Source: Bryobacterales bacterium
Lineage (GTDB): Bacteria; Acidobacteriota; Terriglobia; Bryobacterales; UBA6623
DNA length: 64,000 nucleotides
Assembly (NCBI GenBank): GCA_028819235.1
Contig: JAPPMC010000231.1
Coordinates: 1-64,000 of the forward strand
Direction of reading: 5' to 3'
The notes beneath the pieces were generated by a model. It saw only the letters and a program-made list of their open reading frames with translations, did no database searches and was not told the DNA's origin. A program made the translations under genes and the position numbers. Of the stretch, positions 391-7,437 are shown in pieces. Every line of letters starts with the position of its first letter. The first letter of the stretch is position 1.

Positions 391-3300
391 CTAGACGGGG
401 ATGATCTCGTCGATGTCCTGTGCAATCTCGATCGTTCGGAAGACCTCGATCTCGTCGCCCCGCTTGATGTCGTTGTAGCGCTCGAAGTGCATGCCGCACT
501 CCTGGCCGGCGCGCACTTCCTTGACATCGTCCTTGAAGCGCCTCAAGGAGGCCAACTGGCCGGTGTGGACGACGACGTTGTCGCGCAGAAGCCGGGCGGA
601 AGCGCCCGCCTCCACCAAGCCTTCAGCCACTAGGCAGCCCGCAACGGTGCCCACGTTCGTGATGTTGAACACCTCAAGGACAGATGCCCGGCCGAGGCGC
701 TCCTCTTTGCGGATCGGCTCTAGCAGGCCGGCTAGGCTCTTCTTTAGCTCGTCTACGAGCTCGTAGATCACAGTGTGGAGCCGTATGTCGATCCGCTCCC
801 GGTCCGCCAGTGCCGCAGCGGAGCGCTCGGGCCGCACGTTGAAGCCGACAACGACCGCATTGGCCGTGATCGCCAGCAGGATGTCGGACTCCTTGATCGC
901 TCCAACGCCGGAGTGGATCACGCGCACCTTGACCTTCTCGCTGGTCAGTCTGGCGAGCGTGTCCCTCAGGACGGTCGCGGAGCCCTGGAAGTCTGCCTTG
1001 AGGATTATCGGCAGTTCCTTCGTCCGGCCGGCCGCGAGCTGCTCCTGGAACTGCTCGAGCGAGATCCGGGCGCTTTGGGCCATCGACATCTGGCGGGCCT
1101 TCTCTTCGCGGTAGTCGACGATCTTGCGGGCACGGCCGGTGTCGGCGACGACCGAGAGCTGGTCCCCGGGATCAGGCAGCGAGTCCAGCCCGAGCACCAC
1201 AACCGCCGAAGAGGGGCCTGCCTCGCGCACTCTACTGCCACGGTCGTCCATCAACGCCCGCACCCTTCCCAGCACTGCCCCGACCACGAACGTGTCGCCG
1301 ACGCGGAGCGTGCCGTTCTGGGTAAGCACCGTGGCCACGGGGCCCTTGCCCCGGTCCAGCTTGGCCTCCAGGACGACACCGATGGCGGAACGGTTCGGAT
1401 TCGCCCGCAGCTCCGCCAGCTCGGCCACCAGGCTGATCATTTCCAGCAGGTTCTCGATGCCCTCGCCCGTGATCGCCGAGACGTTGCAGCAGATGGTCTC
1501 GCCGCCCCACTCCTCGGACACCAGCCCGCGCTCGGCCAGCTCGCGCTTTGCCCGCTCCGGATCGGCGCCGGGCAGGTCGATCTTGTTGACGGCGACGATG
1601 ATCGGAACCTTTGCCTCCTTGGCGTGGTCGATCGCCTCGAGCGTCTGCGGCATCACGCCGTCGTCGGCCGCGACGACTAGCACAACGACGTCCGTGACCG
1701 CGGCGCCGTGGGCGCGCATCTTGGTGAAGGCCTCGTGCCCCGGCGTGTCGATGAACACGATGCGCTTGCCGTCCTGGACCACGTGGTAGGCCCCGATGGC
1801 CTGAGTGATGCCGCCCGCTTCGCGAGCGGCCACGTTCGTGGACCGGATCTTGTCCAAGAGGGACGTCTTTCCGTGGTCCACATGCCCCATGATCGTGACG
1901 ACCGGCGCCCGCGGCTCCAGATCCTCGGGACTCTCGTCCTGATCGATCGCGATGACGGCCTCTTCCTCGAAGGTGAGCTCTTCGACCGTGGCCCCGAACT
2001 TCGCGGCAAGAGACTTGATCGTCTCCAGCTCCAAGGGCTGGTTGATGGTCGCGAACTGGCCCTCCTCGACCAGCTGCTTGATGATCTGGCTGGCTTTGAG
2101 CCCCAGCTTCTCGGCTAGTTCCTTGACGGACGCTCCTTCGGTGGCGACGATCTCTGTGTTAATGGCCTTCGGGAGTTCGGCCTTCCGCTTGCGCTGCTGG
2201 AGCTTGCTCTCGGCCAAGGCCACGAGATCTCGCCTGCGACGCGGCGGTCGCGGCCGCCTGAACCCGGGCGGCCTGTGCGGCCGTCCCGGTCCGCCCGGCC
2301 GGCGAGGCATGCCCGGCCGCGGGGGCATCCCCGGGCGTGGCGGCATGCCTGGGCGCGGCATGCCCGGACGAGGGCCGCCCGGTCTGCGGTACCCGCCTAC
2401 TGGGGGAGTCGGGATCCCGGGGACGGCCGCTGGCTTGTGCGGGCGCTGGACAATCGGCCGGCCCGGGCTGAGGCCCGGACCGCCACCCGGCCGCTGCCTA
2501 GGCAACCCGCGCGCGGCAGCCCGGCCAGGCTGGCCTGCAACCCTCGGAGGTCGGACCGGGCGGGCGGGGCGGATGGGCGCAGCGGGCCGGCGCGGCGGCT
2601 TGGGAGCGCCAGGAACGGGCGGCTTGGGCGGGCTGGGACGGCGGGTCGGCGGCGCCAAGGGGGGCGCGGGCCCAGCTTTGCGGGGCGGCGCGGGCCTGGG
2701 TACCTGCGGACGGGGCGTACGAGGGGGCGGCTTCGGGCGAGCTGGAGGAATCGGGGGCGGGGCCGAGACCGCCGGGCGCGCCGGTCGGACAGGCGGCCGG
2801 AATTTGGGGGGCAAGGGGCTCGGCGGACGAACGGGCGGCGCAGACGGCTGAGGCATCCGCCTCTCGGGAGCCGCCACTTTGCGGGGCTCGGCTGGGGCGC
2901 GGGGCGGGGCGACCGTGCCGGCCCCGTCGGGCCTTCCCGCTGGCTTGTGGACTCTTGGGAGCAGGCTGGGGGGCACCGGCGGCTGCCGGGATGCTCCGCC
3001 CGGTGGCCGTACGGGTTTCGACCGCACCGGCGGCGGCTGCACCGGCTTTGGCGGCTGCACGCGGGGCGGCTGCAGCGGCTTCGGCTGCACAGGGGGGACG
3101 ACTCCCGCGGAGAGCGGAGGCCGCAAGCCACCCACCAGCGGAGGCTGAAAGGCCGGCGCACCCGTGCCACCGATCCTTATCGTGGGCCGGACTCCCGCCG
3201 CGGACCTTCTCCTAGGAGCCCTCCTCGCCGAAGGCCGGACCCGCGGACGCTTGGTCCGGAGCGGGAGCTCCAACTCGGCGAGAGGCCCTGGGCCTGCCTT

Positions 3301-3448
3301 CTTGGCACTCAGCTTTCGCATCCGCGCGCGAACCTTGCTGGCTTCCGCCTCGCTGAGCGAGCTCGAATGGGACTTCGGACCGTGAATCCCCAAGTCCGGA
3401 AGTATCGAGAGGATCTCCCCCGATTTGACCTCCAGCTCTCTTGCTAGT

Positions 3449-3462
<14 letters not shown>
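391..3462 (-). CDS. infB: Translation initiation factor IF-2
   Basis: IF-2 is the GTPase that places initiator tRNA on the 30S subunit. With the start chosen here it is 1023 residues. Order: an IF2_N helix ('[17 protein letters not shown]', residues 2-18), a Pro/Arg/Gly-rich linker at about 50-410 with 'RPGMP' repeats, a second IF2_N segment near 430-480, then the G domain with G1 'GHVDHGKTS' near 526, G3 'DTPGHEAF' near 571 and G4 'NKID' near 624, followed by domains II-IV. The frame is open for 36 more codons upstream, but that stretch is buried in the end of nusA and looks like random Arg/Trp-rich sequence. No ATG, GTG or TTG lies at the conserved N-terminus. A GGAGGG Shine-Dalgarno at 3471-3476 sits 8 bases before an ATT at 3460-3462, so an AUU start overlapping the nusA stop is proposed. 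An ATG start at 3570 is the fallback. Confidence 0.93.
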
Positions 3463-5089
<1,627 letters not shown>

Positions 5090-5111: not shown

Positions 5112-5570
5112 CTACCAGTCCACCACCAACCGCGCGTGTTCGATGTCGTCAAGCGGCAGCCGCAGGGATTCCCCTCCCTCGGTCCGCAGGGAAACATCCC
5201 CCCGCGTGAAGCCCTGGATGCGGCCCGTTACGCGCAGCGCTTCGCTTGTGCGCACCGCCACTCGCCGACCCTCAAAGCGCTCGAAGTCCGAGGCGTGCCG
5301 AAGCTTGCGGTCCAATCCCGGAGAGGAGACCTCAAGTGTGTAGTTCCCTGGGACCAGGTCCTCGACGTCTAGCGCCGCCGAGAGCCTGCGGGACACGCGC
5401 GCGCAATGGCCGTGGGTGATTCCATCCGGACCGTCGATGTAGACGCGCAGCACCCCCCCTCGGAGCGACCCCTTCCATTCGGCACCGACAACCTCAAGAC
5501 TCTCGGACTCGGCGATCCGATCGGCGATGCTGCGGGCCCGGTCTACGATCACCCTTCGATGCGACGGCAT
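5112..5570 (-). CDS. rimP: Ribosome maturation factor RimP
   Basis: RimP assists 30S subunit maturation. The 152-residue product carries the family signature 'LEVSSPGLDRKLRHASDFER' after the N-terminal alpha/beta domain ('EVVGAEWKGSLRGGVLRVYI'), and a C-terminal SH3-like domain ('GRRVAVRTSEALRVTGRI'). The frame is open 23 codons further upstream, but that extension would run through an intrinsic terminator. The ATG at 5568-5570, preceded by an AGAGGGGGG Shine-Dalgarno, is the natural start and gives the normal family length. It is the first gene of rimP-nusA-infB-ylxP. Confidence 0.94.
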   Translation of the reverse strand: MPSHRRVIVDRARSIADRIAESESLEVVGAEWKGSLRGGVLRVYIDGPDGITHGHCARVSRRLSAALDVEDLVPGNYTLEVSSPGLDRKLRHASDFERFEGRRVAVRTSEALRVTGRIQGFTRGDVSLRTEGGESLRLPLDDIEHARLVVDW

Positions 5571-5586
5571 GTGCCCCCCTCTGAGC

Positions 5587-5613
5587 AAAAAAAAAGTGGG
5601 ACTCGGCCCACTT
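5587..5613 (-). terminator. Intrinsic terminator/attenuator in the rimP leader
   Basis: Read on the minus strand, a 7-bp stem AAGTGGG / CCCACTT with a 6-base loop (CCGAGT) is followed directly by a run of nine T residues. The run ends 16 bases before the rimP start codon. The hairpin lies downstream of a good extended -10 element, so it is placed as a transcription attenuator of the rimP-nusA-infB operon rather than as the end of another gene. No gene on this strand lies close upstream that would need a terminator here. Confidence 0.8.
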
Positions 5614-5642
5614 CCCATGCTCATCGACTGCGACTGCATTCC

Positions 5643-5651
5643 ACTATATCA
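5643..5651 (-). promoter_or_regulatory. Extended -10 promoter element of the rimP operon
   Basis: The minus strand reads TGATATAGT, that is TG-N-TATAGT, an extended -10 one base from consensus. No convincing -35 is seen 17 bases upstream, as is common for extended -10 promoters. The predicted transcript would begin near 5636, giving a leader of about 65 bases that contains the terminator at 5587-5613. Confidence 0.5.
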
Positions 5652-5877
5652 TGAGCGGATCGCTTGGGGCGAGGTCTCCGGGGCAGCGGCAGGCAAATCC
5701 GACTCTCATTTTGCCCGGCCTGATTCCGACGAGGGCGAGTTTCGCGATCACCAGCGGGCACCGCGTGTAGGCAGAATTGGCGGCCACAGATGGCTATCAT
5801 TGCGGCGGATCTGATTCTTGATGCCCCTTTTCCGTGCGGGTCCGTTGTAGTGCTCCTTGCGGGCGGGAGAGACTGAG

Positions 5878-6621: not shown

Positions 6622-7437
6622 CTACAGCGAGCGATCGGCCACGCGCACGCGCATGGCTTCGAGCTTGTCCACGTAAGATTGTCGGTACGAACGGTGGTCC
6701 AAGCCGAAGGGCGTGTTCCGCGGCTGGAAGCCCGCAAGTACCTCGTCGGGATCGGCCTCCGCGAACCGGCGCATAACCGCGACTTGCTCCTCAAAGACGC
6801 CAGCCAGGTCGTGGTGCTCGGCCAGCAGCCGACGCAGCACGTGGACGCCGAAGGCGATGTGCCGCTGCTCGTCGCGTTGGATCAGGCGGATGCCACGCTC
6901 GAGGCCGGGAAACCTCCCGCTTCGTTCGAATATCGCGTGATACAGGGTATAGCCGGCCTCGGCGCTGACGCCCTCGACGTAGAAGTGATAGAGCATTACC
7001 GCTCGGAAAAGGGCTTCTGGGCTGTCGTCGTGCAGCAACGACCGCATGGCAAGCGGCAGACGGGCAGAGAAGATGTCGCCGTGGAAGTCGGGATAGGGGA
7101 TGTCGACTCCGAACCGGCCGGGCAGTGCCTCGACCAGCCAGCGCTCGAAGAACTGAACGTGCCGCGCCTCTTCATACATTTGCGCGGCCACGAACACCTG
7201 CTCCTCGATCCATCGGGCGTGGCGCAATCGTATCTGCAGGGGAGCCAATTCGTGGGTGACGCCGCGTTCGCCGAGTCGGAAGCCAGCCACGAGCCTCACC
7301 AGCAGACGCCGTTCTTCGTCCGTGAGGGCCAGCCAGTCGGAACGCTCCTGCGAGAAGTCGATGTCGCCGGGGCTCCACGCACGCCCATGCGACGCCGTGA
7401 ACAGCCGCATGGGAAGCGAGTCGTGGTCGAACGGCAT
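6622..7437 (-). CDS. R2-like ligand-binding oxidase (R2lox)
   Basis: This 271-residue protein belongs to the ferritin-like ribonucleotide-reductase R2 superfamily, and specifically looks like R2lox, a Mn/Fe oxidase that binds a long-chain ligand and forms a Tyr-Val ether cross-link. The N-terminal 'WSPGDIDFSQ' is typical. The six metal ligands can be placed: E57, E90 and H93 ('EEARHVQFF'), E155, E190 and H193 ('QRDEQRHIAFG'). The cross-link pair V60 and Y150 is also present. The spacings between these residues (33, 65, 35) equal those I recall for characterised R2lox proteins. There is no large-subunit nrdA nearby, consistent with a non-RNR role. The ATG is preceded by GGGAGG at a rather long distance, so the exact start is less certain. 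Confidence 0.85.
   Translation of the reverse strand: MPFDHDSLPMRLFTASHGRAWSPGDIDFSQERSDWLALTDEERRLLVRLVAGFRLGERGVTHELAPLQIRLRHARWIEEQVFVAAQMYEEARHVQFFERWLVEALPGRFGVDIPYPDFHGDIFSARLPLAMRSLLHDDSPEALFRAVMLYHFYVEGVSAEAGYTLYHAIFERSGRFPGLERGIRLIQRDEQRHIAFGVHVLRRLLAEHHDLAGVFEEQVAVMRRFAEADPDEVLAGFQPRNTPFGLDHRSYRQSYVDKLEAMRVRVADRSL

Follow-up and report, generated by a model that had tools for sequence, protein, structure and literature searches.

A probable rimP-leader-type attenuator, most likely responding to NusA, before the rimP-nusA-infB operon of a Bryobacterales bacterium

What is the role of a predicted intrinsic terminator that stands directly before the rimP-nusA-infB operon, where any transcript of the operon has to pass it? 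This question is raised by a stretch of 64,000 nucleotides from a Bryobacterales bacterium of the Acidobacteriota (contig JAPPMC010000231.1), called here the window. A preliminary description had proposed an extended -10 element, a 7-bp hairpin and a nine-T tract ending 16 bases before the rimP ATG, and this anatomy is correct to the base (Table 1). In our opinion the element is likely to be a transcription attenuator of the rimP-leader class, through which NusA most probably limits its own synthesis.

Table 1. Leader elements and operon genes in the window
Feature	Positions	Strand	Basis
Extended -10 TGATATAGT	5643..5651	-	sequence; TGATATATT stands at the matching place in sister genome G002
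Predicted transcription start	about 5635-5637	-	estimated from the -10 TGATATAGT
Outer stem 5' arm TGAGCA, upstream of terminator	5618..5623	-	leader fold; complementarity test in relatives
Terminator hairpin 5' arm AAGTGGG	5607..5613	-	sequence, fold, strict scan; conserved in relatives
Terminator hairpin 3' arm CCCACTT	5594..5600	-	sequence, fold, strict scan; conserved in relatives
Nine-base U-tract of predicted intrinsic terminator	5587..5595	-	sequence
Outer stem 3' arm TGCTCA, read-through RNA only	5582..5587	-	leader fold; complementarity test
Shine-Dalgarno-like GAGGGGGG	5574..5581	-	sequence; directly after outer stem
rimP, first gene of the operon	5112..5570	-	NCBIfam RimP families, best E 3.6e-37, below curated cut-off
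nusA	3449..5089	-	TIGR01953, 382.5 bits (cut-off 253.4)
infB (IF-2)	391..3570	-	TIGR00487, 770.9 bits (cut-off 424.4)

The two arms of the 7-bp stem are separated by the loop CCGAGT, and two of the nine T's double as stem bases; the tract ends at 5587, leaving exactly 16 bases (5586-5571) before the ATG. RNA terminated here is predicted to be about 47-51 nt long, and the predicted leader from start to ATG about 66 nt; its fold departs modestly from shuffled sequences (z = -2.07). The true start of infB is probably further in, since the listed ORF overlaps nusA. Upstream of the operon, on the minus strand (6622-7437), lies a gene for an R2-like ligand-binding oxidase (NCBIfam NF006200, 198 bits, cut-off 194).

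Under a strict definition of a terminator (at least 7 bp, at least 4 G-C pairs and at least 7 T in 9), the hairpin is the only match on both strands of the 64 kb, and 20 dinucleotide shuffles contain none. A loose terminator scan of the window gave no excess (5 found vs 10.1 expected from shuffles), and therefore the loose promoter/terminator scan was not taken as evidence. The 7.19-Mb genome to which the window belongs contains a single match to the pattern GTGGGN{3,8}CCCACTTTTTT, namely in this leader. Among 100 related genomes, the exact form GTGGGCN{3,7}GCCCACTTTTTT was found in 85, once in each (reversed control, 0), and the relaxed form at 89 places in 88 genomes (reversed control, 1 place). 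Leaders containing the motif explain 87 of the 89; of the other two, the place in genome G080 has a RimP-like reading frame after it, and that in G032, antisense inside another reading frame, is the sole stray. In its own genome and in the 100 relatives, the motif is specific to the rimP-nusA-infB operon.

RimP was detected in 98 of the 100 relatives and all 98 loci were inspected. GTGGG-loop-CCCAC lies close upstream of rimP at 88 of them, its commonest form consisting of AGTGGGC, a loop of the GNAA type and GCCCACTTTTTT, and an altered, mostly still paired stem could be discerned by eye at seven more (L010, L011, L016, L031, L048, L072 and L075). Two of the 98 loci, L088 and L089, have no such hairpin, which must therefore be dispensable there; one more, L098, was rejected as a false RimP match. 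Within the genus the terminator is present in 11 of 11 genomes, twice with a G-U variant, so that the conservation expected by the preliminary description was found and the absence that would count against attenuation was not. The inner C-G pair has been lost in the window and in G002 and is retained in most relatives. Flanking sequences were analyzed for 92 of the 98 loci (L016, L031, L075, L088, L089 and L098 did not fit the extraction). A good -10 box is found in 80 of these 92 leaders vs 14 in shuffles, and the end of the best -10 lies at a median distance of 25 nt from the hairpin (31 in the window), a distance so short that the leader cannot accommodate a metabolite aptamer. This conservation, of the hairpin throughout the genus and of the promoter position, strongly supports attenuation in the leader of the nusA operon. 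By eye, nine of the 11 same-genus leaders (L003-L011) also display an extra hairpin immediately before the terminator, TTTCGG-N6-CCGAAA, the loop of which varies (L011 has CCGGAA in place of CCGAAA). The AAA of this hairpin is a potential competitor for the A-U pairing that extends the terminator stem; the window and G002 do not have the hairpin.

The motif extends far beyond the Acidobacteriota. In an unanchored scan with one genome per species, RimP lies within 900 nt downstream in 58 of the 84 matches listed (these occurrences sit in 80 loci listed). Among the matches listed, the RimP-followed motif occurs in loci labelled Acidobacteria, alpha-, beta- and deltaproteobacteria, Nitrospira, Rokubacteria, Latescibacterota and Marinimicrobia, and two matches, both labelled Chloroflexi (L156 and L164), have NusA first downstream; RimP_N (PF02576) was found nowhere in the genomes of these two. 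In Seonamhaeicola (Flavobacteriia; L140 at 3355-4330, L102 and L127), two GTGGGC-GCCCACTTTTTT terminators lie less than 1 kb apart with neither RimP nor NusA downstream, and hence the motif is not strictly operon-specific in those Flavobacteriia. We also collected loci anchored on NusA, each sample bearing the phylum label of its central locus. GTGGG-CCCAC was found before the operon in 12 of 30 Bacillota loci (Clostridia-type; 30 of 61 genomes, around an Oscillospiraceae genome), in 15 of 28 Actinomycetota loci (from 41 genomes, with the contig-start loci L330 and L331 omitted) and in 7 of 30 Cyanobacteriota loci (30 of 39 genomes). Under this pattern the majority of Bacillota loci are thus without the hairpin, although the pattern may miss some. 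For the Cyanobacteriota we used the strict count alone, because the 15 of 30 loci obtained with a looser GGG..CCC pattern cannot be clearly separated from a background of 10 of 30 on the reverse strand. Several cyanobacterial loci (L347-L358) carry a different, palindromic AACGGG-CCCGTT hairpin with a T-tract before rimP, which has the form of a terminator on either strand. In E. coli K-12, a hairpin of the GGGC-GCCC type with a T-tract precedes rimP.

Which gene the hairpin accompanies can be judged in the Chloroflexota, the phylum of L156. In a sample of 61 genomes around G100, NusA_N was found in 53 and RimP_N in 6, leaving 55 with no RimP hit. The absence of RimP from a single genome is weak evidence, as many of these are metagenome assemblies, but 55 of 61 taken jointly are not, which suggests that RimP is missing from much of the phylum. 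A strict GTGGG-loop-CCCAC with a T-rich tail was found within 330 nt before NusA at at least 33 of 50 nusA loci (50 of the 53 NusA_N genomes; G120, G133 and G142 were left out) and, with slightly looser limits, at 40 of 50; L225, scored as a miss through wrong placement by the script, also carries the hairpin. In 123,415 bases the only other place with the motif is in L231, where the palindrome of its own leader is read on the opposite strand. The exact pattern was found in 2 of 301 Chloroflexota genomes: here the inner C-G pair has not been retained, and the relaxed core has. In the six Chloroflexota that possess RimP the GTGGG hairpin was not found; one of them (L256) has a hairpin of the GGGCC type. 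In the Chloroflexota sample the hairpin goes with nusA, not with rimP. Its presence before nusA where RimP is absent speaks for NusA, more than for RimP, as the product that is sensed and, together with the literature on other bacteria, lends support to the NusA autoregulation proposed in the preliminary description.

An alternative antiterminator stem before rimP, suggested at the same time, fared differently: neither the fold nor the relatives revealed any antiterminator that would exclude the terminator, and the sole extra pairing encloses it. A UGGGA/UCCCA antiterminator drawn by eye in the window was rejected, as the sister genome G002 does not keep it. The enclosing pairing joins TGAGCA to TGCTCA and is present in the leader fold; since it surrounds the terminator and forms only after read-through, it cannot prevent termination. 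Among genus representatives of the Acidobacteriota, the complementarity of the two flanks was -8.51, vs -6.92 for partners exchanged between genera (sd 0.40), and in a letter-shuffle test the genus-mean difference was -2.13 (se 0.40), with 30 of 36 genera below zero; the window's own genus adds little to the latter signal (-0.93), and three control windows were flat in both of these free-register tests. Contiguous helices of at least 5 pairs occur in 81 of 92 matched flanks (0.880) vs 0.675 for mismatched partners, a modest excess. The signal recurs in 14 named Acidobacteria, some species of which may repeat the first set (3 of 1000 permutations as low), and is absent from 44 leaders of other phyla (405 of 1000). 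With columns fixed in either of two registers (49 of the 92 sequences, no more than two per genus), the outer stem did not rise above shuffles: the paired percentage was attained in 111 and 152 of 500 shuffles, and the covariation score in 126 and 90; RNAalifold predicted no outer stem on the leader alignment. As fixed-column covariation lends the outer stem no support, either its register varies or the signal stems in part from something else. On this comparative evidence, an outer stem of variable register is probable in the Acidobacteriota.

The Rfam covariance model of the gammaproteobacterial rimP_leader, which we take to be RF01770, gave no match in the window at the gathering threshold, nor at E 10 in 5450-5750. 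Matches to raiA-hairpin and sR40 in the same segment at E 10 were below their cut-offs and taken as chance. The primary paper on attenuation in the B. subtilis nusA leader is reportedly that of Mondal 2016. The idea of attenuation for this leader is not ours: it was already published in 2010, in a study in which the rimP-leader is described as the most ubiquitous transcription attenuator, and in which NusA is called the foremost candidate for the sensor and RimP is named as possible (Naville & Gautheret 2010, PMC2965389). As described there, the rimP-leader shares with the window a short, sequence-conserved G-rich/C-rich hairpin with a T-tract before rimP-nusA-infB, an operon-specific motif and the lack of an antiterminator. 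Of the published stem GGGc(...)gCCC, the window and G002 keep GGG/CCC without the inner c-g pair, and the 16 nt to rimP fit the published range of 4-130 nt from terminator to gene start. The outer stem of the Acidobacteriota and the hairpin before nusA without RimP differ from that description, the main text of which makes no mention of Chloroflexi (PMC2965389), and in the literature consulted we found no account of a Chloroflexota or Acidobacteria form. New here are the Acidobacteriota member, the linkage to nusA without rimP, and the probable lineage-specific outer stem.

Among individual systems, that of B. subtilis is likewise an intrinsic terminator in the 5' leader at the entry to the nusA operon, where, according to a 2025 review, NusA is autoregulated via NusA-stimulated termination (PMC12288461); its dependence on NusA is reported as shown, whereas for the window it is inferred, and its leader is 180 nt long (PMC2965389) compared to the predicted 66 or so. 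In the S. agalactiae gbs0413-0418 leader, transcription also terminates upstream of rimP-nusA-infB, 31 nt after the start according to RNA-seq, by which the short and long RNAs start together (PMC4448216), whereas termination in the window is predicted from sequence. Terminators before rimP are also found in the gammaproteobacterial tandem rimP-leader and in E. coli metY-nusA-infB (PMC2965389, PMC6511841); unlike these, the window has a single hairpin, no metY tRNA and no antiterminator.

Several other explanations have to be weighed against attenuation by NusA. Two of them deny that the element is an attenuator. The ORF listing shows the rimP frame to be open also from the ATG at 5639, and a longer ORF starting there would enclose the hairpin; however, relatives keep the hairpin and not the upstream protein, their own start codons follow directly after the hairpin, and a start at 5639 leaves almost no leader, so that we give practically no credence to a hairpin inside the rimP coding region. 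In view of the Shine-Dalgarno-like sequence, the start sites in relatives and the lack of a conserved protein upstream, we took the rimP start as 5570. The hairpin would also stop transcripts coming from upstream, yet it is extremely improbable that it is simply the 3' terminator of such a transcript, given that most relatives have a promoter some 25 nt ahead of it and that the next same-strand gene is about 1 kb away.

The remaining two concern the signal. An operon attenuator that senses RimP, IF-2 or some other input could be imagined, since rimP is the first gene here and RimP feedback has been considered in print (PMC2965389). We regard this as unlikely, because the hairpin stays before nusA in the Chloroflexota sample, most of which (55 of 61 genomes) gave no RimP hit, and because feedback by NusA has been documented for both B. 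subtilis and E. coli (PMC12288461, PMC2965389, PMC4448216). Sensing of IF-2 would still be compatible with our data. Somewhat less likely still is a constitutive, leaky terminator that holds the operon at a fixed low level with no feedback. It would agree with our failure to find an alternative antiterminator fold, but a plain terminator does not need what is observed here, a stem whose sequence, beyond its pairing, is kept across phyla, and feedback has been reported elsewhere (PMC12288461).

Under attenuation by NusA, RNA polymerase would start about 25 bases before the hairpin and meet the intrinsic terminator within its first 50 bases or so, whereupon a short RNA would be released or transcription would read through into rimP-nusA-infB. 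By analogy to other bacteria, NusA would most likely raise termination at the hairpin, so that high NusA would lower its own synthesis; both termination at this leader and its modulation by NusA are what we infer for the window. As the stem sequence is conserved across phyla and the leader offers too little length for an aptamer, the signal is probably the recognition of this hairpin by NusA on the polymerase and not an alternative RNA fold. In the Acidobacteriota, the outer stem would close round the hairpin and the U-tract in the read-through RNA and end beside the ribosome-binding site. Any effect of this stem would come after the decision on termination, perhaps on mRNA stability, processing or ribosome access. 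We tentatively suggest, as a view we hold at somewhat less than even confidence, that the "rimP-leader" is in fact an ancient nusA-leader, a hairpin of fixed stem sequence that is read by NusA-bound polymerase and persists before nusA even after the loss of rimP. In this view the enclosing helix of the Acidobacteriota would turn the read-through leader into a single long hairpin beside the ribosome-binding site and add a layer of control.

The near-invariant sequence of the stem suggests a specific contact of the NusA-bound polymerase with the terminator hairpin. The 2010 study left open which product of the operon is sensed; the genomes in which the hairpin precedes nusA without rimP point to NusA, and they constitute natural material in which sensing of NusA may be tested.
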